Source: Stygiobacter sp. RIFOXYC2_FULL_38_25
GTDB taxonomy: Bacteria > Bacteroidota > Ignavibacteria > Ignavibacteriales > Melioribacteraceae
NCBI GenBank assembly: GCA_001803165.1
Contig: MHAZ01000022.1
Coordinates: 1 to 64,000 of the forward strand
DNA length: 64,000 nucleotides
Direction of reading: 5' to 3'
In this document: in pieces, positions 1 to 62,163 of the stretch
Position numbering within the stretch: the stretch's first letter is position 1
Layout of the letters: each line of letters opens with the position of its first letter
Notes under the pieces: generated by a model
The model's input: only the letters and a program-made list of their open reading frames with translations
Database searches by the model: none
Told to the model about the DNA's origin: nothing
Program-made: the position numbers and the translations under genes

Positions 1-406
1 AAGTATGACGTTGAACAATTTTAATGCGGGCACGAAGAGCATCGCGAAGAAGACGGTTATCGTTAGAAATTTTATGAGCGACAGGAATGTAATCCATGCG
101 AAGAAGTTGGGCTAAAGTATGCGAATCAACTTTATCTGTTTTGACTTTAGCATAAGCAATAGCTTTAACATACTTGGCATGAGCAAGAACCATGGGAATG
201 TTAAGAGAAGAAAGCAGATCGCCCAGCCAATACCATGTCATAGTTGACTCGACAGTTGTTATGTTCTCGTTGCCGAGATCAGAGAAATACTGAACGAAGT
301 TATGGTTCACATTTTTAATATCTGCTTCTTTGATAATGTTGCCGGAAGAATCAACTGTGGTTAAGTAAGAAGTGAACTTGTGAAGATCGATACCAGTGTA
401 ATACAT
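1..406 (-). mobile_element. IS110/IS1111-family transposase, N-terminal part (truncated by window edge)
   Basis: Reverse-strand translation from ATG at 406: MYYTGIDLHKFTSYLTTVDSSGNIIKEADIKN...TTVESTMTWYWLGDLL...KYVKAIAYAKVKTDKVDSHTLAQLLRMDYIP; GIDLHK and KTDKVDS are typical DEDD motifs of IS110-type transposases. Not in the ORF track because it has no stop inside the window. Confidence 0.9.
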
Positions 407-470
407 AGATGCCTCCAATAAGCAATTGTTGTTGGAGAAACATTAACTGTTTTTTTACTTATTGGAAATA
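407..470 (-). mobile_element. Short terminal non-coding end of the IS110/IS1111 element
   Basis: Only about 60 nt between the transposase start and attC-like sequence; contains 8-bp inverted repeat ccaataag (415-422)/cttattgg (458-465). Exact boundary is inferred. Confidence 0.5.
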
Positions 471-675
471 TCACGCGCCTCAACAGCGACCGCGTCTATG
501 ACGCAGTCGTTTGATGTAGTTATTGGGTTTAGTTTTTCAGAGTAGGTTTGTTGTTAAAGGTTGATTTGCAGTGCATGACAAAATCCGCTAAGAGCGGTTA
601 ATTATAAATAAAAAGGTTGTTGCTAAAAGCGTCATTGTAGTTATGGGCGGCGCTTTAGTTGCAACGCCGTTATAC
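469..675 (+). other. attC-like site 0 (R'' end disrupted by IS element)
   Basis: 5' half cacgcgcctcaacagcgaccgcgtc...cagtcgtttgatgtag resembles the 5' half of attC5; 3' half gttatgggcggcgctttagttgcaacgccGTTATAC. Confidence 0.75.
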
Positions 676-698
676 TTTTTAGGAATGCTAAAAATTGT

Positions 699-2057
699 AT
701 GTTAAATATTGATGATTTGGCAGTAGGAAAATTCTCGTTAGATTTCCCTAAAATTGTTTTAAGTAACAAGAGTGGGAAAGAATACCTTGGGGCCGGGAAT
801 ATATTCCAAGATTCAGATGGTGATTTGCAATTAAAAATGTATTCATATGATGAGGAAGGTTATAGGCTATTTAACAAACTTGGCAAACCCAAACCTGGTC
901 GTATTATTCCCAACAGTCACTATTTTAAATTCAGTGGCAAGGATACTTTTGATCAAGAATGGAAATCTGAGAGAGTTAATTTTGGTTATGACTTATCCGC
1001 TGATTTTAAAAACATTATTATCAAATCAAATATTCACTACATTAAACAAAAGGTTAAAGGGATTGTAAAATTCAATAGGCCTCAATATGTAATCAGATTT
1101 AAGAAAGATATAAGATTCCCAAAAGTTGATTATTATGGCAAAAGTGCAAAATCATATGAAAAGATTAAAAATGATTTTCGAGTAAATATTATTGCAAATT
1201 TTATTCACAATGATTTGGAATTCCTTTTTTATGAAAACGAAAAATGGTATATCGCAGAAGTATTTTCTAACAAAGGTAGACTCAGCGAAAATATCGTAAA
1301 TTATCTTTGTGAAGCTTTACAATTTGTGCTTTCTGCAAATATTTATTGTGTTGTTATAGAAAAATTTGAAGGATATTATGACAGTATCCAAATCAGAAAT
1401 ATCCGCAAATCTAGTCCATCGCATAGAATCCCTCCACCAATAAGTTTTAATTCTGCAAAAACTTCTGATATATGGAAAATGTTTTGCAAATATTATGATT
1501 TTGTTTCTAAAAATAACTCGGTTAATTACCATCCTATATCGCTAAAACTTCACAATCTCATTCAAGCATCTAGCATTTCCTTGGAATCTCAATCATTATC
1601 CATAACTACATTAATAGAAAGTATTGTTATGAATAATTTTGCCTTATATCTCAAAGCAATCGATAAATACGAAATAGATATCGCTAAACTTAAGAAACAT
1701 CTTGTTTCTGATAATTACCAACAAGAGTTTATAGATAGAATTAATGGTTTCTTCCCCTTATTGGTTCGACCTAATCCTAACAATGTTCTAAGAGCGCTAT
1801 TAAATAAAAGACTAATTAAAAAATATCATATAGATACATGGAATGAATTGCGCAACCCGATAGCTCATGGGAAAATAATTGAGTTCAAGGATTATCAAAA
1901 GTATTTAACATTGTGTTATAAATGTCAGTCGCTTTTCAATTTACTTATTTTCCTTCTGATTGAATATCAAGGATATTATAATGATTTCAGCCAATATGGT
2001 TTTAAAATGAAATCGTTTAAAAAAAGTATAACACGCGTCTCAAGCGGAACGCTGTAG
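699..2057 (+). CDS. HEPN-like C-terminal domain protein (RNPIAH motif), cassette C1; function unknown
   Basis: 452 aa ORF; C-terminal ...YHIDTWNELRNPIAHGKIIEF... matches the R-X4-H HEPN catalytic motif (codons 1851-1868). Confidence 0.6.
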   Translation: MLNIDDLAVGKFSLDFPKIVLSNKSGKEYLGAGNIFQDSDGDLQLKMYSYDEEGYRLFNKLGKPKPGRIIPNSHYFKFSGKDTFDQEWKSERVNFGYDLSADFKNIIIKSNIHYIKQKVKGIVKFNRPQYVIRFKKDIRFPKVDYYGKSAKSYEKIKNDFRVNIIANFIHNDLEFLFYENEKWYIAEVFSNKGRLSENIVNYLCEALQFVLSANIYCVVIEKFEGYYDSIQIRNIRKSSPSHRIPPPISFNSAKTSDIWKMFCKYYDFVSKNNSVNYHPISLKLHNLIQASSISLESQSLSITTLIESIVMNNFALYLKAIDKYEIDIAKLKKHLVSDNYQQEFIDRINGFFPLLVRPNPNNVLRALLNKRLIKKYHIDTWNELRNPIAHGKIIEFKDYQKYLTLCYKCQSLFNLLIFLLIEYQGYYNDFSQYGFKMKSFKKSITRVSSGTL

Positions 2058-2192
2058 TGGGTCGTGGTATTTATAGTTTATCATTGTAGTGATAGTTGAA
2101 GAAAGGAAGTAAATAAAAAAAACATAAACAATAAGTCGTTGTATTTGTAGCGGCAACCTTTTGGCGTCCGCTTAAACGCAACGTCGTTAGTA
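2026..2192 (+). other. attC1
   Basis: R'' GTATAAC (2026-2032) overlaps the 3' end of the C1 ORF; arms ctcaagcggaacgc / gcgtccgcttaaacgcaac are complementary with extrahelical bases; R' GTTAGTA (2186-2192). Confidence 0.85.
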
Positions 2193-2203
2193 GGCTATCA
2201 AAA

Positions 2204-2803
2204 TTGTTAGGGAGATTATATTTGAAAAAGTTAATCCTATTTACATTGTTCTTAATACTTATTCTTGTTTCGTGTAAGAATGAAGATAGTATTGTCAATC
2301 AAAATACTTTACACGAATTAGTTCCATTAAAAATTGGTAATTGGTGGGCATTTCAAAGAATAAATTATGACTCAACTGGTAATGCTGTATCAACATTTAT
2401 AGATACCATGAAAGTATTACGCGATACTGTGATACAAAATGAACGATGGTTTATTACAAATTATTATGGCATCTATAGAAACGCAACAAATGGAGTTCGG
2501 TTTTGGGATTCAACTAATAATTCAAGTTATGTTTATCTATATCCTGTAAAAGAGCATGATATGTTCGTGATGGGAAGTGCAATTGTTGAGGTTATATCTA
2601 CAAACGAAAAGCTGAAAGTCCCATATGGTGATATTTCTTGTGTTCACTATAAAGCAACTTTTAGCTCACTAAACAATTTTCATATAAATTATTATTTGTC
2701 TCCAGGAATTGGATTTGTTAGTCTTGAAGGTCCTGCGAGGACAATTAGTGGCAGAAGTTATCTTTACTATCGTGAACAATTAGTGTCTTACTCATTGAAA
2801 TAA
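2204..2803 (+). CDS. Predicted lipoprotein, cassette C2
   Basis: Signal peptide plus lipobox-like LVSC; real start may be TTG at 2221. Confidence 0.65.
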   Translation: MLGRLYLKKLILFTLFLILILVSCKNEDSIVNQNTLHELVPLKIGNWWAFQRINYDSTGNAVSTFIDTMKVLRDTVIQNERWFITNYYGIYRNATNGVRFWDSTNNSSYVYLYPVKEHDMFVMGSAIVEVISTNEKLKVPYGDISCVHYKATFSSLNNFHINYYLSPGIGFVSLEGPARTISGRSYLYYREQLVSYSLK

Positions 2804-2828
2804 TTATTCGCATTGCTTTATTGTTGCC

Positions 2829-3018
2829 TACTAACCCGCTCTTGCACCCGACCGCATTTTTTCATAGCGGCATTTGGGAAATTATTGAGTTTGGTTAACA
2901 AAGTAAGCGTAGCAATAAAGTTTGTTCTAATAAATAAATTAGTTAAAAATTATTGGCATTGCTTCTTAGTTTCGTCATTGCTGTTATGGGCGGCGCTTTA
3001 GTTGCAACGCCGTTATAT
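2829..3018 (+). other. attC2
   Basis: R'' (gcc)TACTAAC, complement of the C2 start GTTAGTAggc; 3' end tgttatgggcggcgctttagttgcaacgccGTTATAT. Confidence 0.85.
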
Positions 3019-3821
3019 TGTTTGAAGATATGAAAAGAATTTTCAAAAATATTGTTATGGGATTGACAATAATATTGTTCCTTAACTCGTGCAATTCTAT
3101 CACTGAATCAATTCCGTCTCCTCTTGAATACCCAACTAATTTATTCTCAATTGGTAGAGTAAAAGCCGATTCTATCCAAAATTCAATTCGAAGTAATGAT
3201 TTCTTTTCTTACATAGATGAATATGGTTTATTCTCATTCTCTGGAACATTAGGTAGAGGGAACTCAAATATCACTGATAAAAACGTTGCAATCCGCTTGG
3301 CAAAAGAAGCTTTACTCAAATATTCCAAATATTCAAATGTTAGTGATACTACAAAACTAGAATTAAATGAAGCTACTAATTATAATCCTTCACCACTTCA
3401 TTTTACCGATTGGATTGTATCATTCAAGAACCAGAAGTATAATGGAATTGAAGTTTTAAATACTGGCATAATCGTGGTTCTTCATAATCAAGTAAGTCAA
3501 ATAATTGGGCATCATTTCAAAGAAATATCAATTCCTATAAATGGCACATTATCAAAAGATAAATTAGAAAATATATTGGTTGGTAAAAAATTAGAAATGA
3601 TGTGTAAGACTAAAATAGAAATAACAATAACTCATGAAATGATACTAAAAAATAAAATTGCCCAAAATATTATTTGGCGTGAGCTAAATGGTATTATAGA
3701 ATTAAGACTTACTTGGAATATTCCTATATCAACTTCTAATGATGATAATGTTAGTTGGAATGTATGGGTAGATATATTAAGCGGTGAAATATTATTCTAT
3801 AGCCCAACTTTTATATGTTGA
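3018..3821 (+). CDS. Predicted lipoprotein, cassette C3 (real start probably ATG at 3030)
   Basis: 267 aa; MKRIFKNIVMGLTIILFLNSCNS signal peptide/lipobox. Confidence 0.65.
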   Translation: MFEDMKRIFKNIVMGLTIILFLNSCNSITESIPSPLEYPTNLFSIGRVKADSIQNSIRSNDFFSYIDEYGLFSFSGTLGRGNSNITDKNVAIRLAKEALLKYSKYSNVSDTTKLELNEATNYNPSPLHFTDWIVSFKNQKYNGIEVLNTGIIVVLHNQVSQIIGHHFKEISIPINGTLSKDKLENILVGKKLEMMCKTKIEITITHEMILKNKIAQNIIWRELNGIIELRLTWNIPISTSNDDNVSWNVWVDILSGEILFYSPTFIC

Positions 3822-3827
3822 AAAACA

Positions 3828-4015
3828 GTATAACCAGTTCTTCAAGACCGACCGCTTTAAACGTAGCGGCATTTGTGTAGTTATAAAGCTACGTTGTAAA
3901 AGTTAGTAGCTCTTTGAGTGTAGTTAACAAAATGAAATAATAAATAATTATTGGCGTTGATTTTACAAAGCTGCAAAGTTGTGCTGGGCGGCGGCTTAAA
4001 ACAATGCCGTTATAC
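3828..4015 (+). other. attC3
   Basis: GTATAACcagttcttcaagaccgaccgc ... tgggcggcggcttaaaacaatgccGTTATAC; arms complementary with an extrahelical base. Confidence 0.88.
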
Positions 4016-4026
4016 GTGCAAGATTA

Positions 4027-4661
4027 TGAGTGAAATAAAATATCATAGATTGTTTTGGTGGATAGAAGGCATATCAGCTATTCTACTCTTTATTGCCTTA
4101 TATACAAATTTAATACACAAAGTTGATTTGATAATTAGTATTGGTATTTATCTATTATTATCATCAATCTTTTATTTCGCCCTTGACTTACGTGTTGTTA
4201 CAAAAGTATCTGATAAGTTAAAAGACGAGCTAAAAGATTACAACAACCCCAATATAGAGCGATTAAACAAAGCTTCTGTCTTTATTAATCTAATAAAAGT
4301 CCTAGTACTGTTATTTATTATAGTTATTGGTAATAAATCCATGGTACAGTTAAATCATTGGATTAATGCAGTTGTGATCGTTATGTTTTTCGGTGTATTA
4401 TTAATTCTAATATACCTCTACCTAAAAAACGTATTGTTGTCTTACAGTTATCCAAATACATCATTAATGCATTTAATTAAGAACTTTATTTTTTATTATA
4501 ATAAAAAGGATAATAGATCAATAGTAGATAAACCTATAGGCATAGGTTCAACAATAAATTTTGCTACAAAAGAAGGTAAGTTCATTTTTTTATTGTTGCT
4601 TTTTCCACCAATTGTAATAGTAGTATCAATTTTAATTCTCAAATCACTTGGTAAAATATAA
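4027..4661 (+). CDS. Hypothetical multi-pass membrane protein, cassette C4
   Basis: ATG at 4027 (MSEIKYHRLFWWIEGISAILLFIALY...); several hydrophobic segments. The track ORF begins at 3951, but that start lies within attC3. Confidence 0.6.
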
Positions 4662-4667
4662 ATGCAC

Positions 4668-4817
4668 GTATAACCTGCAACTCAAACCGACTACTGTATT
4701 CGGCTTATTATTTGCTGTTTAGCTTTGCAGTGTTTTTTGAAAATAAGAAGTAACTAGATAATATAATCAGTAAAAGAAAAAACGTTGGCAGCGTAAACCT
4801 TTTGGCAGCCGTAGTGA
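4668..4817 (+). other. attC4 (3' core degenerate)
   Basis: R'' GTATAAC with 12-nt complement to the C4 start; 3' arm aacgttggcagcgtaaaccttttggcagccGTAGTGA is not a consensus core. Confidence 0.6.
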
Positions 4818-4883
4818 ATAATAATTGACACAAAATTTGAAAATAAGGAAGTCCAATTAAGCTATTAAAAAAACGAGACTATT

Positions 4884-5372
4884 ATGTTTGTTAAAGAAGC
4901 GACTGTTGTAATTTTGGTAGTAGCATTTTTTTCAGTAGCGCTAGCAGAAAATAATTCTGATTTCTATTATTCTAAAGGAGATTCAACAAAAATGACACCG
5001 CAAGAAATAATAATTGCAAAAGAAAAAGCAATACTAGACAGATGGATAACCGGCGATACATTCGGATTTATTGAAGCTGCCGCCGAAGAAATAACCTATT
5101 TTGATCCCGGTTTAGAAAAACGCTGTACAGGTAAAAAAGAATTTTATGATTGGATTGCCCCTTTCAATGGGACATTCAGCTTTCCCAACTATGAATTTAT
5201 TGATCCGCAGGTTCAAATGCATGGTGATGTTGGTGTTCTTACTTTTAATTTTATTGGGTTTATGCAGGATGGCAGTAAAGAGTATTTTAATACAACTGAA
5301 GTATACAGACTGATTGATGGGGATTGGAAGCTAATAAGTTCTCACTGGTCACAAACTAAACCTAAAAGATGA
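4884..5372 (+). CDS. Exported NTF2/SnoaL-like (DUF4440-type) protein, cassette C5
   Basis: 162 aa, signal peptide; ILDRWITGDTFGFIEAAAEEITYFDP...TTEVYRLIDGDWKLISSHWS is typical of the fold. Confidence 0.65.
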   Translation: MFVKEATVVILVVAFFSVALAENNSDFYYSKGDSTKMTPQEIIIAKEKAILDRWITGDTFGFIEAAAEEITYFDPGLEKRCTGKKEFYDWIAPFNGTFSFPNYEFIDPQVQMHGDVGVLTFNFIGFMQDGSKEYFNTTEVYRLIDGDWKLISSHWSQTKPKR

Positions 5373-5464
5373 TATTTGATTAAAAAGAAATGTTCATTTA
5401 CTATATGATTAGTCAAAGAAAATATATTTATTACATAGGCAGTAGTTAAATAAAGTACAAAACG

Positions 5465-5585
5465 GTATAGCCCTTTATTTAAGCCGACCGCTTCTTCGAT
5501 ACAGTTGTTTGAAGTAAAATAACGTTGCTTTGATAATTGCTGGTCTGTTGTTATGGGCGGCGGGTTAAGCGCAACGTCGTTGGGC
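5465..5585 (+). other. attC5
   Basis: GTATAGCcctttatttaagccgaccgcttc ... gttatgggcggcgggttaagcgcaacgtcGTTGGGC. Confidence 0.75.
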
Positions 5586-5603
5586 ATCATATTAATAACA
5601 AAT

Positions 5604-5718
5604 GACCTCTGAAATATTAAGACTAAGTCATGGTGAGCTTGTCGAACCATGACAATACAAACTAAATTGTCACACTTCGACAGGCTCAGTGTGACACTAA
5701 ATTAATTATTCAGAGGTC
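5604..5718. repeat. Dumbbell palindromic repeat (outer inverted repeat plus two hairpins)
   Basis: gacctctgaa (5604-5613)/ttcagaggtc (5709-5718) enclose gtcatggt-gagcttgtcga-accatgac (5627-5653) and gtcacact-tcgacaggctc-agtgtgac (5669-5695); the two 11-nt loops are complementary at 10/11. Confidence 0.85.
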
Positions 5719-5776
5719 TCAACAAATGAATCTGTAATAAATTATTCTATGTTTTTTAATTAAAAGGTAGGTAGAA

Positions 5777-6637
5777 ATGTCAAAGTTCAGAAAATTAGCC
5801 CCCCTTATTTTTGTCATTTTGTTTCCCTCTTTGTCATTATCTCAAGTAAGAGAATCGTCAGAAAAAATCACGGTAATGACACTAGGGGTTTTTCATTTCA
5901 ATTTTCCTAATCTGGATGTACAAAAAGTTGATGATAAAGATAAGATTGATGTTTTAGAAGAAAAGTATCAAAAGGAAATTGTCAAGATTATAGGTGCACT
6001 AAAAAAATTCAAGCCAACCAAGATTGCGATTGAGGCAAATCCTGCTTCCCAAAAAAAAATTGATTCATTGTATAAAGCATATAGGTTTGGCAAACATTCA
6101 CTTGGAAGAAATGAAATTGAACAGTTGGGATTCCGCCTAGCGAGTGAACTGAAAATTGAGAAGTTGGAATGCGTTGATACATGGGGCAAAACTTATGAAA
6201 GTCTAAACTATTTGCTTATTGATAGCTCTTCCAGGGCGAAAGCGTTTGAGCAATATTATTTCAACAATCCAGATACTATATATAAGAAGAAAAGCTCCGG
6301 TAAAAGTCTTTTAAAAATTGAAGGGATTACAAATAATTTACTATACTTGAATGATTCCCAAATTATAAAAGAAAGTTTGGGACCTTATCTCATTGGACAT
6401 TTTAAGTATGAGGAAAAAGCAGATGATTTTACCGGAGTTGATTTTGAAACTGGGAGATGGTTTAATCGTAATCTGAGAATATTTCGTAACATACAAAGAA
6501 TTACAAAAAGTACTTCTGATAGGATCCTCGTCATTTTTGGAGCTGGGCATATGAACATACTAAACTATCTTTTTGAATGTTCACCTGAATACAAGTTAGT
6601 TAGTCCGGAATCATTCTTAAGAAAAGCAAAAAAATAA
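5777..6637 (+). CDS. DUF5694-like exported protein, cassette C6
   Basis: 286 aa; VMTLGVFHFNFPNLDV N-terminal and FGAGHMNILNYLFECSPEYKLVSP C-terminal motifs; signal peptide. Confidence 0.65.
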   Translation: MSKFRKLAPLIFVILFPSLSLSQVRESSEKITVMTLGVFHFNFPNLDVQKVDDKDKIDVLEEKYQKEIVKIIGALKKFKPTKIAIEANPASQKKIDSLYKAYRFGKHSLGRNEIEQLGFRLASELKIEKLECVDTWGKTYESLNYLLIDSSSRAKAFEQYYFNNPDTIYKKKSSGKSLLKIEGITNNLLYLNDSQIIKESLGPYLIGHFKYEEKADDFTGVDFETGRWFNRNLRIFRNIQRITKSTSDRILVIFGAGHMNILNYLFECSPEYKLVSPESFLRKAKK

Positions 6638-6647
6638 ATAGGAAAAT

Positions 6648-6904
6648 GCCTATCCGCCGCTCAATACGGACAGCCCCGCAATACTACTGCAGGGTAAACT
6701 ATTTTCAGTGCGGTGTCCGCCAGAAAACTGCGAACAGGTTTGTGTAATTGAAAAGTTGTGTAAAAAAGTAAATTGCTTTTTGAATGTTGTTAAGTAATCA
6801 AAGTTATTAATGAATTATAGTCGTAGGTTTTTCCTCCGAAGGAGTCCCTTCGGGAAAAGCTGCATTGATGTGTTGGCGGCGGCTTAAAAACAACGCCGTT
6901 ATTC
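6648..6904 (+). other. attC6 (R'' degenerate)
   Basis: atGCCTATC compared with expected atGCCCAAC; 3' end gttggcggcggcttaaaaacaacgccGTTATTC. Confidence 0.65.
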
Positions 6905-7004
6905 CGTAAAAGGAAAGATTGAGCTGTAATTCTTTTCTTAGCAAATTTATTCTGGTAAGTGAGCTTAATGGAGGCTCGCTTCTGTCCGGAGGTATCTGAA
7001 CGTT

Positions 7005-8069
7005 ATGTCACATAATCGTGCGAATAAACCTCAAGGAAAATATATTATGAAAATAATTAACCAAACAAGGCGTAACTTCCTTAAGATGGCTGGCTTTGCG
7101 GCATCAGCATTGACATTTCCCACTAAGATTTATCCAACACATCTCATAGAGCCCAAGAATCAAGGAGACAAGTTTCCGATAAGTTACCAGCTCAGATTGT
7201 ACAGCGGACTCTTGCGGTTGTATGATGATTTCGATCCCTTTCAAGACGAACAAGCACCCAACTTTGAATACGAGTTTTCCCACCCTGAACTCGAGCGATT
7301 GCGCGAAAAGTATCAGCTCGATCTTATCGCCGGAGCCGGGGATGAATGGTCAAAGGCTCTTAACTTAATGAAATGGATATCAGAGCACGTAGGATATAAA
7401 GCAGACATAACAAGTTCACTGCCGGAAGTCTGTAAAACGCTTCCAATGAATTCAATTGGGCTATTAGAGTACTCATTCAATAAGGGTCAAGATTATGGAA
7501 TTAACTGCTACATGCATTCTATCGTGCTTACAGAGGTCTGCTTATCTATAGGATTGAAAAGTCGTATTGTGTCACTAAATCCTCTTAATCCATATGATTA
7601 TGATAATCACTTGGTCACAATAGTTTGGATTACTAGATTCTCAAAATGGGTGATGCTTGACTCCTCATACCATGGGTATCTACGCGATTCCGGGGGAGAG
7701 ATTCTCAACCCTTGGGAAGCAAGAGATCTGCTTTGTCGTCATAAGACCATTGTTTGCAACGAAGAGCTAGTATATAATGGTATTAAAAATAATTCAGAGG
7801 ATTACCTGCGTTACCTAGCTAAGAACTTATTCTACATGCATTCGCCATGCTTCAGCGGGTTCAACAGCGCCACGACTTCAGAAAAACCGTGGCTCACACT
7901 TACTCCCAAACATTTCGATGTTTGCAAAAGAGAGACATATAACATGAAATGGCGCGCGGAAGGAAAAAATGGCAATTGGGAAAAAGATGAACTTGAGCGG
8001 TTACTGAAGGATGAATGCTACGTTGTTGGCACTTCATCTATCGCATCATTCTCCCAAAAGCCTATTTGA
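7005..8069 (+). CDS. Transglutaminase-like protein with Tat-type signal, cassette C7 (start may be 7047)
   Basis: TRRNFLKMAGFAASALTF twin-arginine signal; GINCYMHSIVLTEVCLSIGLKSR...DNHLVTIVW...WVMLDSSYHGY pattern of transglutaminase-like Cys/His/Asp. Confidence 0.7.
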   Translation: MSHNRANKPQGKYIMKIINQTRRNFLKMAGFAASALTFPTKIYPTHLIEPKNQGDKFPISYQLRLYSGLLRLYDDFDPFQDEQAPNFEYEFSHPELERLREKYQLDLIAGAGDEWSKALNLMKWISEHVGYKADITSSLPEVCKTLPMNSIGLLEYSFNKGQDYGINCYMHSIVLTEVCLSIGLKSRIVSLNPLNPYDYDNHLVTIVWITRFSKWVMLDSSYHGYLRDSGGEILNPWEARDLLCRHKTIVCNEELVYNGIKNNSEDYLRYLAKNLFYMHSPCFSGFNSATTSEKPWLTLTPKHFDVCKRETYNMKWRAEGKNGNWEKDELERLLKDECYVVGTSSIASFSQKPI

Positions 8070-8133
8070 GCAGTCCTCTGATAATGACTATGGGTTTTTA
8101 TCAGTAACCACTGGTGCTGTGCAATATTTTGCG

Positions 8134-8343
8134 GTATAACCCGCAAATCAAAGCGACTGCCTTAAACGTTGTGGCATCTGCCAGGAAACTGCGGACAGGT
8201 TTGTGTAATTGAAAAATTGTGTAACAAAAGTAAATTGCTTTTTGAATGTTGTTAAGTAATCAAAGTTATTAATAAATTATTGGCGTTGGCTTTCAGTGTT
8301 GCATTGTTGTTCCGGGCGCGCGTTAGCCACAATACCGTTGGTT
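8134..8343 (+). other. attC7
   Basis: gcgGTATAACccgcaaatcaaagcgactgcc ... gggcgcgcgttagccacaataccGTTGGTT. Confidence 0.8.
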
Positions 8344-8397
8344 GCTAAGTATAATGAATAATATTTGTAACTGAATAATAATATATCATTAAAAGCT

Positions 8398-8859
8398 ATG
8401 GCAAAAGTTAAAATTGATGATGTGGTAGAGCATTTAGAATTTGCAAGTGATATGAACAAATCTTTCTTAAATAAAAAGACCGGTAAAATCCATTTAATTC
8501 CGGAAGAATTAGAGAGATATGCTGAACCGGATTTTGAAGATGAAGATTTCATTCCGGAATGGGAAAAAGAAATTATACCAGTAATAAAGGATATTAAACA
8601 GAATCCAAATGATTATATAGAAATCCCGGACCGGTTTTATATAAATGAATATGCAATTATGGAAAGATTTTGCTTGTCCTTAGAAGAAGCTCTTCGTGAT
8701 AAAATGTATGCTGCAATAAAAGGAAGTGGTGCATTCCGAAGATTTAAGGATAGCATTCATAATTATGGAATTGCTGATGATTGGTATAAATACAAAGAAG
8801 AATCTTTTAGAGAAATAGCTATAGAGTGGTGTAAAGATAATGATCTTGAATACTATTGA
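8398..8859 (+). CDS. UPF0158 family protein, cassette C8
   Basis: 153 aa; EDFIPEWEKEIIPVIKDI...YIEIPDRFYINEYAIMERFCLSL...AFRRFKDSIHNYGIADDWYKYKEESFREIAIEWCKDNDLEY. Confidence 0.75.
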   Translation: MAKVKIDDVVEHLEFASDMNKSFLNKKTGKIHLIPEELERYAEPDFEDEDFIPEWEKEIIPVIKDIKQNPNDYIEIPDRFYINEYAIMERFCLSLEEALRDKMYAAIKGSGAFRRFKDSIHNYGIADDWYKYKEESFREIAIEWCKDNDLEYY

Positions 8860-8879
8860 TGATCAATTACAAAAGAAGC

Positions 8880-9083
8880 AACTAACCCATTCTTCAAACC
8901 GACCGCTTTATAAGTTGCGGTATTTGTAATGGTAGAGATGTATTGGAAAGTAGTTGCAATACAACCAAGTTTATAAATAATTATTAGTATTGGTTTTCCT
9001 CCGAAGGAGAATATCTGCATAGCAAAAAACGCAGGACTGGTTGTACAAAACCGTTATGGGCTGCGCTTTAGCATCAGTAATTA
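8880..9083 (+). other. attC8, terminal site of array A (degenerate 3' end)
   Basis: agcAACTAACccattcttcaaaccgaccgc, complement of C8 start gttGgttgct (9/10); 3' arm gttatgggctgcgctttagcatcaGTAATTA lacks a consensus core. Confidence 0.65.
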
Positions 9084-9166
9084 GAATTTTGAAATAATTT
9101 ATCGCATATAGTATCTATAAATTTACTTCTGAACGCAAAAAGTCCAACATAATTACCGGGATAGAT

Positions 9167-11623
9167 ATGAAATTTTTTCTTTTGTTCTCTTTAATAACAT
9201 TTTCTTTATTAGCCCAGCAGGATATAAACCTCCGGTTATGGTACGACCGACCGGCAGCAAATTGGAATGAGGCATTACCCATTGGAAATGGAAAACTGGC
9301 AGCAATGGTATTTGGCGAACCGGCGAAAGAACAACTGCAGCTTAATGAAGAATCGGTTTGGGCCGGGGGTCCGAATAATAATATTAAGCCGGATGCGAAT
9401 TCAATTATCCGGCAAGCAAGAAAATTGATTTATGAAGGAAGATATGTTGAAGCGCAAGAATTAGTTAATAAGGAAATGACCCCTTATGGAAACAGTGGAA
9501 TGCCATATCAACCGATTGGAAATCTTTATCTCAAATTTCCCGGGCACGAACAGTATTCTAATTTCTACAGGGAACTGGATATTCAACAAGCGACAACAAC
9601 TACTTCCTACAAGGTAGGCGGAGTAGAATATCGTCGCGTGATATTTGCCTCTCTTCCAAATAAAGTCATAGTGGTTCGCCTCGAAGCAAGTCAACCGGAA
9701 AAAATATCTTGCACACTTAGCATGGATTCACCGCAACAAACACAAACAACACTCAAGGATGGAGTTCTTATTCTTTCCGGTATTGCCGGCGATCATGAAG
9801 GACAAAAGGGATCTGTAAAATTCCAGACTTGTGTTGATGTAAAGACAGAAGGCGGATCAACGCGGGCATCGGAATCTACCATCGAAATTGTGAATGCCAC
9901 GGCGGCTACAATCTATATCTCTATCGGAACCAATTTTAAGAATTACAATGATCTATCCGGCGACCCAGCATCTTCTGCGCATGAACTGCTGACAAATGCA
10001 ATGCAGCAAGACTACAATGAAGTTCTGGCAGAACATATTAGGCTGTATAGAAATTATTTTGATCGAGTATCGCTGCGGCTCAGTCAAACAGATTCAGTCA
10101 AAAATACAACCAAGCAACGAATACAAGATTTTAAGAAAGGAAATGATCCGCAGCTGCTTTCTTTATATTTTCAGTATGGCAGATATTTATTGATTTCAAG
10201 TTCTTTTCCCGGGTCGCAGCCGGCGAATTTGCAAGGGAAATGGAATCCCAAAATGCAACCACCATGGGACAGCAAATACACGATTAATATAAACACAGAA
10301 ATGAATTACTGGCCTGCTGAGGTTACCAACCTACCTGAGATGCATCAACCGCTATTTGATTTACTAAGCGATCTCTCGATAACCGGAAAGCAGAGCGCCG
10401 GAGTGATGTATCATGCCCGTGGCTGGATGGCGCATCATAACACAGATATCTGGAGAATCACAGGGCAAGTTGATCCGGCATTTTATGGTCTTTGGCCTAT
10501 GGGTGGCGCATGGTTGAGCCGGCATTTATGGGAACATTATCTTTTTACGGGAGATCGTAAATTTCTCAAGTGGGCATACCCAATCTTGAAAGAAGCGGCA
10601 TTATATTTTGTTGATGCATTGCAGGAAGAGCCAACTCATCATTGGCTTGTAGTTTCGCCATCCATCTCACCGGAAAACAGTTATATCAAAGAAAAGAAAG
10701 TTTCCGTAACGGCAGGGTGCACAATGGATAATCAAATTGTGTTTGAGCTTTTCTCAAATGCTATCCGTGCTGCGGAAATACTTGGTATTGATGCGCGTTT
10801 TACCGACACACTCACAATCAAACGCAAACAGCTGCCTCCCATGCATATAGGTAAGTATGGACAACTGCAAGAATGGTTAAGTGATTGGGATGATCCTAAC
10901 GATAGGCATAGGCATATTTCACATTTGTTTGGTTTGTATCCCGGGAATCAAATTTCGCCGTGGCGAACGCCTGCACTTATACAAGCAGCCAGAACAACCT
11001 TAGAACAACGAGGTGATTTATCAACAGGCTGGTCAATGGGATGGAAAGTAAACTTTTGGGCAAGAATGCTTGATGGTGATAGAGCCTATAAGTTGATACG
11101 AGATCAGCTCTCACTGGTAGAAGAGGATAACTCAAAAGGTGCCGGAGGAACATACGCAAATATGTTTGATGCCCACCCGCCCTTTCAAATAGATGGAAAC
11201 TTTGGATGCACAGCGGGAATTGCTGAAATGCTGCTTCAAAGTCATGATGCTGCTATTCAGATATTGCCGGCACTTCCGGAAGCGTTGCCGGAAGGTAATG
11301 TAAAAGGATTAGTTGCTCGCGGCGGGTTTGTAGTTGATATAGTATGGGCAAAAGGAAAAGTTCAAATGCTCACTATAAAATCCCGGTTGGGAGGCAATTG
11401 TCGTTTGCGTACATATACGCCACTATTCACAACGAATAACCAAGAGCTGCCAATCGCCAGTGGAGAAAATACAAATCCATATTTTAATATTGATGATGTT
11501 CCGGATGTTGTTATTTCTCCCAGTGCCTCGTTATTAAACTTACCCCAAAAACGTAGTTACATTTATGATGTAACTACACAGGAGGGTAAGGTTTATACTT
11601 TTAAAAGTTTGGAGATTGATTAA
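9167..11623 (+). CDS. Glycoside hydrolase family 95-like alpha-L-fucosidase, exported
   Basis: 818 aa; LRLWYDRPAANWNEALPIGNGKLAAMVFGEPAKEQLQLNEESVWAGGPNN...; FQIDGNFGCTAGIAEMLLQSH. Confidence 0.92.
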   Translation: MKFFLLFSLITFSLLAQQDINLRLWYDRPAANWNEALPIGNGKLAAMVFGEPAKEQLQLNEESVWAGGPNNNIKPDANSIIRQARKLIYEGRYVEAQELVNKEMTPYGNSGMPYQPIGNLYLKFPGHEQYSNFYRELDIQQATTTTSYKVGGVEYRRVIFASLPNKVIVVRLEASQPEKISCTLSMDSPQQTQTTLKDGVLILSGIAGDHEGQKGSVKFQTCVDVKTEGGSTRASESTIEIVNATAATIYISIGTNFKNYNDLSGDPASSAHELLTNAMQQDYNEVLAEHIRLYRNYFDRVSLRLSQTDSVKNTTKQRIQDFKKGNDPQLLSLYFQYGRYLLISSSFPGSQPANLQGKWNPKMQPPWDSKYTININTEMNYWPAEVTNLPEMHQPLFDLLSDLSITGKQSAGVMYHARGWMAHHNTDIWRITGQVDPAFYGLWPMGGAWLSRHLWEHYLFTGDRKFLKWAYPILKEAALYFVDALQEEPTHHWLVVSPSISPENSYIKEKKVSVTAGCTMDNQIVFELFSNAIRAAEILGIDARFTDTLTIKRKQLPPMHIGKYGQLQEWLSDWDDPNDRHRHISHLFGLYPGNQISPWRTPALIQAARTTLEQRGDLSTGWSMGWKVNFWARMLDGDRAYKLIRDQLSLVEEDNSKGAGGTYANMFDAHPPFQIDGNFGCTAGIAEMLLQSHDAAIQILPALPEALPEGNVKGLVARGGFVVDIVWAKGKVQMLTIKSRLGGNCRLRTYTPLFTTNNQELPIASGENTNPYFNIDDVPDVVISPSASLLNLPQKRSYIYDVTTQEGKVYTFKSLEID

Positions 11624-53275: not shown

Positions 53276-53359
53276 TACCCGGGACAGGATTTGAACCTGC
53301 ACGACCTCGCGATCACTAGCTCCTGAAGCTAGCGTGTCTACCAGTTCCACCACCCGGGC
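53276..53359 (-). tRNA. tRNA-Leu(CAG)
   Basis: Minus strand gcccgggtggtggaactggtagacacgctagcttCAGgagctagtgatcgcgaggtcgtgcaggttcaaatcctgtcccgggta; class II with variable arm. Confidence 0.95.
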
Positions 53360-61970: not shown

Positions 61971-62024
61971 TTAACATAGGGTTGCAAGGTGTTATGTTGA
62001 ACAAGAATGGGTGAAATAAAAAAT

Positions 62025-62116
62025 GCCAGACTACCAATCACCCAAGTTAGATACTGACCGTTGCTTCCTTCCGGACCTGGCGGGGTTGGGTATTAACTTG
62101 CCGATTAGAGCCTGGC
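62025..62116 (-). ncRNA. ffs: SRP RNA (bacterial small type, 4.5S-like)
   Basis: Minus strand gccaggctctaatcggcaag...ccccgccaggtccggaaggaagcaacggtcag...; conserved AGGTCCGGAAGGAAGCA tetraloop domain. Confidence 0.93.
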
Positions 62117-62163
62117 AAAAATTTGGGGCGGAAATATAGAAAAAAATCCCGCAGTTAAAAACT

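Follow-up and report, generated by a model that had tools for sequence, protein, structure and literature searches.

A gene-cassette array of Stygiobacter as probable part of an IS-broken chromosomal integron, and dispersed attI platforms in the Melioribacteraceae

We analysed the first 64,000 nucleotides (forward strand) of contig MHAZ01000022.1 from Stygiobacter sp. RIFOXYC2_FULL_38_25 (family Melioribacteraceae, phylum Ignavibacteriota; assembly GCA_001803165.1), a stretch that we call the window. Positions 466-9086 of the window are a genuine integron gene-cassette array. The array begins at an insertion sequence (IS) of the IS1111 type and probably belongs to an integron whose integrase gene (intI) and attI site lie on another contig, C8. 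Elsewhere in this genome and in related genomes, further attI sites stand behind a common leader sequence with no intI gene beside them, and we refer to these as orphan platforms. Our explanation is that the window array continues the C8 array of a Stygiobacter-like chromosomal integron broken by the IS, in a family that has dispersed orphan platforms. It was drawn from sequence comparison, and we put its probability at about three in four.

attC sites and cassette boundaries in the window

The original prediction, made from the letters of the window alone, described an integron-type array of single-ORF (open reading frame) units alternating with sites of 120-260 bp. Such units do alternate with sites of 121-257 bp, and eight of these sites were matched by a covariance model of attC (R1). 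The model was trained on 11 sites of the Stygiobacter genome and has 23 base pairs. In the model, 82.6% of cells were paired, compared to 30-42% after sliding by one to three columns, and its covariation score was reached by none of 500 shuffles, with ten pairs changed on both sides. Detection in the window is partly circular, as seven of the eight sites belong to the training set; untrained sites adjoining intI in related genomes were also matched by the same model. When the bottom strands were folded, the R and L boxes formed a stem, with an unpaired G in nine of the 11 sites and an unpaired T in ten. Extrahelical G and T on the folded bottom strand are typical of attC. An Rfam search gave no match in the array or in the C8 locus (L018).

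All eight matched sites lie on the minus strand. The first (466-675; 124 bits) has its R'' side replaced by the IS and ends at the G^TT at position 669. It is followed by sites at 2026-2192 (109.7 bits), 2829-3018 (151.7 bits) and 3828-4015 (179.6 bits), a short site at 5465-5585 (77.2 bits), a long one of 257 nt at 6648-6904 (119.8 bits), and a site at 8134-8343 (156 bits). The last (8880-9086; 56.1 bits) has lost its right end, lacks the GTT and forms the array boundary. A degenerate attC between units 4 and 5 (about 4663-4830) consists of the R'' side only, without the GTT end, and was not matched by R1. The prediction that the sites share a common 3' end was partly correct. The full 29-nt string gttatgggcggcgctttagttgcaacgcc is limited to the sites ending at 668 and 3011, whereas the remaining sites have the common core GGGCGGCG...AACGYC.

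Cassette boundaries provided a test that does not depend on the attC model: a cassette begins with bases complementary to its own R'' end. This same-unit pairing, predicted for six of the eight units, was found in cassettes 1 (12/12), 2 (10/10), 3 (11/12), 4 (12/12), 7 (10/12) and 8 (9/10). Cassette 6 paired weakly and unit 5 had no recognisable start. Among 5040 permutations of the window units, only the true order itself matched or exceeded the observed pairing. For 12 units, including those on C8, there were 85 pairing matches, while permuted ends gave 49.7 (standard deviation 5.7), and none of 100000 permutations reached the observed value; this figure is conservative, since unit 8 was entered with a misplaced end. 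Pairing that is specific to each unit rules out ordinary intergenic repeats. The attC folds, the covariation and the permutations all support an integron-type array.

Integrase, attI and orphan platforms

A genome-wide profile search for intI found a single integron integrase, at C8:48919-49853 (TIGR02249, 328 bits over residues 76-313, plus an N-terminal piece). C8 carries, in this order and all in one direction, the leader, intI, attI (at about 49999) and five cassettes that reach the end of the contig, and the first cassette pairs GTTATACGCT with AGCGTATAAC at 10/10 positions. Because intI lies in two overlapping frames, a full-length protein is probably not produced and the integrase is probably inactive, barring an assembly error. 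In a relative from the same genus (G070; locus L151, contig C220), intI is also broken, by lesions that differ from those in the Stygiobacter genome, and the same leader stands before it. Integron integrase matches were found in 40 of 81 Melioribacteraceae genomes. Complete integrons have already been reported in Ignavibacteriae with IntegronFinder (PMC9024848), so the host group of the integron is not new.

Genome-wide, there were 36 attC sites at E<0.001. Twenty-four of these lie outside C8 and the window contig (C22), on C1, C2, C3, C4, C9, C12, C16, C17, C19, C20 and C21. The left boundary of each first cassette was placed solely where the sequence best complemented the R'' of that cassette. 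In nine cases the boundary chosen in this way lay after [GT]TAATA^GTT, the attI core of C8, or a near match to it, and the 60-140 bp upstream of these junctions were homologous to the C8 attI or to one another. Farther upstream is a conserved leader composed of TTGAT, some 17-20 bases, TAAGTTG and then GGTTCC...GGAACC, the same leader that stands before intI on C8. Apart from the missing intI, the orphan loci resemble the C8 platform. The hairpin GGTTCC...GGAACC is conserved in sequence, and covariation support for it was not found; it could be a protein site rather than an RNA structure. A model of the leader (R2) added copies, for example at C16:1400, C4:108986, C4:136572, C21:133660 and C21:319259, several of them with attI-like junctions. 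Its 25 matches should not be read as 25 platforms, as most of those scoring under about 50 bits have neither the hairpin nor attI, and such low-scoring matches are probably ordinary promoters. The attI model (R3) gave a count of 9, which is a minimum because R3 alone misses weaker copies in the Stygiobacter genome (on C9, C12, C20, C21 and C4). We estimate about a dozen to fifteen platforms in this genome.

The attI sites next to intI in the family lie about 110-190 bases 3' of the gene and have a nearly fixed core, GCAGcATAAtTAATA^GTTA, in 17 of 30 loci. A matrix was made from 17 intI-adjacent sites of relatives, none from the Stygiobacter genome (one row was mis-cut and contributed nothing). 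Over 37146 GTT/ATT positions, it ranked the C8 and C16 junctions first, followed by those on C17, C19, C4, C2, C12 and a second copy on C16. Across the family, the attI model found 12 sites in Stygiobacter electus (G067), 14 in G031, 9 in G021 and 6 in G048. G031, G021 and G048, as well as G036, have many attI sites and no integrase over the family cut-off. Of 51 orphan attI sites examined, 33 had an attC within 3.5 kb downstream in the same orientation and none in the opposite one. Their first cassettes paired at 174 of 208 boundary positions, compared to 86 +/- 7.7 after permutation (0 of 100000). The orientation of the downstream attC, together with this pairing, shows that the orphan attI are used attI sites. 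As read from these matches, the orphan-platform arrangement recurs across the Melioribacteraceae.

In the mechanism that we propose, the substrate of IntI would be the bottom strand of attC in its folded form, cut at G^TT, and circular cassettes would be joined at attI. Transcription of intI on C8, and of the first cassettes at the other platforms, would start from a promoter in the leader. One integrase in the cell could fill every attI of matching type. Orphan platforms, each a leader and an attI with intI deleted, are scattered and carry their own cassettes, so that landing sites are numerous in a genome that has no more than one or two integrases.

Some orphan platforms retain traces of intI. 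The last 25-35 codons remain at orphan attI in G059, G067 and G068, as do residues 187-312 in G009, which makes these platforms deletion derivatives; in G068 the orphan attI closely resembles the genome's own intI-adjacent attI. In two platforms of G052, a single-contig genome, the promoter region and 35-40 initial codons of intI remain, and attI follows directly. Their deletion boundaries match, which means that the deleted platform itself was copied. Three consecutive platforms were also seen in one cassette region of G052 (C1:654000-668500; L268), two of them retaining about 40 codons of intI and the third a full gene, with an attI in each.

A single integrase acting in trans may fill and reshuffle at least a dozen dispersed attI platforms, each with a promoter, while the intI-deleted platform multiplies non-autonomously, as miniature inverted-repeat transposable elements do relative to transposons. 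We propose this only tentatively, at a little short of even odds. The intI remnants would also fit a history in which the orphan platforms all started as complete integrons with an intI of their own and lost it by deletion, so that their cassettes are older and nothing now acts in trans. The two-frame intI of the Stygiobacter genome, the broken copy in G070, and the four genomes with many attI and no integrase over the cut-off all agree with such fossils. Against them, boundary pairing over 10-12 nt is still near-perfect in many of the first cassettes that follow an orphan attI, which suggests recent insertion and recent use of the sites. Leaders and attI cores are also conserved without intI, and the two G052 platforms with the same intI deletion and leader indicate copying of the deleted form. 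We consider the fossil history possible, but lean towards doubting it.

The IS1111-type element and the partner contig

The Stygiobacter genome comprises 4.4 Mb in 22 contigs, and base 1 of the window is base 1 of C22. The contig starts within the IS, whose 5' (left) end occupies window positions 1-470 on the minus strand. It encodes the N-terminal part of a DEDD/IS110 transposase with a start codon at about 406, reading left (Pfam DEDD_Tnp_IS110, 44.8 bits; NCBIfam transpos_IS110, 61.8 bits). A subterminal inverted repeat, TTTTTACTTATT, lies at 452-463, and its partner, AATAAGTAAAAA, lies at the end of C8. There (55648), the opposite end of an IS of the same kind directly follows the R'' of the fifth cassette, in a split attC. 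Complete copies of the IS in relatives carry exactly these two ends, and several of them are inserted in attC. Insertion is in a fixed place and orientation, adjoining the R'' of attC, with two copies in the Stygiobacter genome and several in relatives.

IS1111-attC insertion sequences such as ISKpn4 and ISPst6 are described in PMC11187229, which cites Tetu and Holmes 2008 and Post and Hall 2009. Like that group, the present element has a DEDD transposase, subterminal inverted repeats, a short left and a long right end, and inserts in one orientation at one end of attC; it differs from the known members in being found in Melioribacteraceae.

We infer, as the simplest reading, that a single IS, flanked by C8 and C22, split a single attC. 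An IS1111-type element targeting attC would then have interrupted the array, and with it the assembly, between C8 and base 1 of the window. GC skew is negative along C8 and C22, whereas C19, the other contig that opens with this IS, would have to be turned round, giving a positive skew. This favours C8 as the partner of C22, and we regard C8 as the highly probable partner. The expectation that attI and intI lie to the left of base 1 is supported at the level of the contigs, C8 having intI, attI and cassettes that end in the opposite end of such an IS.

Some observations speak against this explanation. The only intI of the genome lies in two frames, making present activity doubtful unless the sequence or its assembly is in error. 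The broken intI of G070 is a second damaged copy in the genus. Finally, C19 opens with the same 87 IS bases at another split cassette array, which leaves the link between C8 and C22 unproven. The window array might instead belong to the intI-free orphan platform on C19, where this 87-base IS end closes the contig at a split attC. That arrangement would need the GC skew to change sign exactly at the junction, and we consider it unlikely.

Other contigs bear on the same element. At C19:1-1250 (L095) the second IS copy splits another attC at the same place, and the array there runs from an orphan attI at about C19:1695 to an HNH-like cassette. C16 carries a different IS1111-like element inserted in attC (C16:9480; L063/L067), whose transposase is 61% identical to that of the window. 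We rejected it as the missing partner because it is a different element, with 77% identity to the window end where the two match. Contig C1, too, starts within a cassette array (C1:1-3600, L092; attC at 1252 and 3360), with its left partner missing.

The original prediction had allowed for a CALIN, a cluster of two or more attC lacking a nearby integrase, here considered as one without a partner attI. No intI lies within the 64 kb of the window, where the array closes with a truncated attC and includes a degenerate inner site. The label is true within the window. It is probably false once the contigs are joined: C22 begins inside an IS in attC, attI-bearing arrays end in the opposite IS end, and intI is on C8, the probable partner contig. 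We therefore find a CALIN without a partner very improbable.

Cassette contents and comparison with known integrons

All eight window units encode proteins on the plus strand. Cassette 1 (GTTATACTTTTT ... AAAAAGTATAAC; 669-2032) contains an ORF of 452 aa (699-2057) of unknown function, with no Pfam family over the cut-off. Cassettes 2 (2186-2835; pairing GTTAGTAGGC/GCCTACTAAC) and 3 (3012-3834) encode predicted lipoproteins of 199 aa (2204-2803) and 263 aa (3030-3821), the latter with a weak NCBIfam match to a T9SS M36-like family, far under the cut-off. Cassette 4 (4009-4674) encodes a membrane protein of 211 aa (4026-4661) that is DUF5808-like, just under the cut-off. Unit 5 (4884-5372) encodes a SnoaL-like protein (SnoaL_3, 40.3 bits) and cassette 6 (5579-6655) a DUF5694 protein (5777-6637; 174.6 bits). 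Cassette 7 (6898-8140) encodes a transglutaminase-like protein with a Tat-like N terminus (7005-8069; Transglut_core over the cut-off), and cassette 8 (8337-8886) a UPF0158 protein (8398-8859; 45.6 bits). Only the SnoaL-like, DUF5694, Transglut_core and UPF0158 matches exceeded the Pfam cut-off, and PADLOC gave no match for the eight cassettes, in line with the prediction that the cargo is almost entirely unannotated. With no convincing PADLOC match, a defence-island reading was rejected.

The products of two C8 cassettes (L018 2825-5554) carry a C-terminal sorting domain of type IX secretion, which makes secretion probable for part of the cassette proteins. In cassette 6, between its start and its ORF, window positions 5604-5718 hold two imperfect palindromes with 53-nt arms that are 72% complementary, containing GTCATGGTGAGCTTGTCGAACCATGAC and CACTTCGACAGGCTCAGTGTGAC, which look like a repetitive extragenic palindromic (REP)-type repeat. 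A chromosomal GH95 gene (9167-11623) lies to the right of the array. The window also contains a bacterial small signal recognition particle RNA gene (62021-62117) and a tRNA gene (53276-53359), both on the minus strand and unrelated to the array.

The integron resembles the sedentary chromosomal superintegrons of Vibrio in its TIGR02249 integrase, an attI adjoining intI, an array of attC that fold on the bottom strand, and cassettes that mostly contain a single ORF of unknown function. Unlike in Vibrio, attI is 3' of intI, the cassettes share the direction of intI, and a genome has many attI platforms rather than one. The Treponema denticola-type integron also has intI transcribed toward attI and cassettes in the same direction, with a single attI per integron as stated in that study (PMC3607928); it differs from the present system, with its dispersed orphan attI platforms and common leader. 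CALINs are defined without regard to attI (PMC9024848, PMC12444791). The attC clusters without adjacent intI elsewhere in the Stygiobacter genome are like the CALINs of IntegronFinder (PMC9024848), but many of them own an attI and a leader that are invisible to attC-only searches, and the window cluster is probably that of an intI platform.

Cassettes scattered at single chromosomal G^TT sites recall attG insertions, in which IntI uses chance genomic sites off-target, a behaviour described in E. coli (PMC12444791, citing Loot et al. 2024), but attG sites are unrelated to attI, while the orphan junctions are copies of attI over 60-140 bp with a promoter-like leader and some with intI remnants, and attG use is therefore a most improbable explanation for them. 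Where scattered attC have no attI that can be recognised, as at a few sites such as that on C3, they could be attG insertions.

Relative to known integrons, what appears new within the family is the dispersed platform of leader and attI without intI. We found no description of dispersed intI-free attI platforms, or of multiple or orphan attI, in the open-licence literature. The usual integron model joins a single integrase to a single attI, promoter and array, and only the first cassettes are well expressed. If a genome does have many leader-bearing attI platforms, the expression limit of the single-array model would be lifted, and cassettes would be expressed from many places at once. Part of the integrase-less attC clusters would then be attI platforms that current attC and intI searches overlook. 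The attI core GCAGcATAAtTAATA^GTTA offers a means to locate attI in Melioribacteraceae, and the genomes without intI make the question of service in trans testable.

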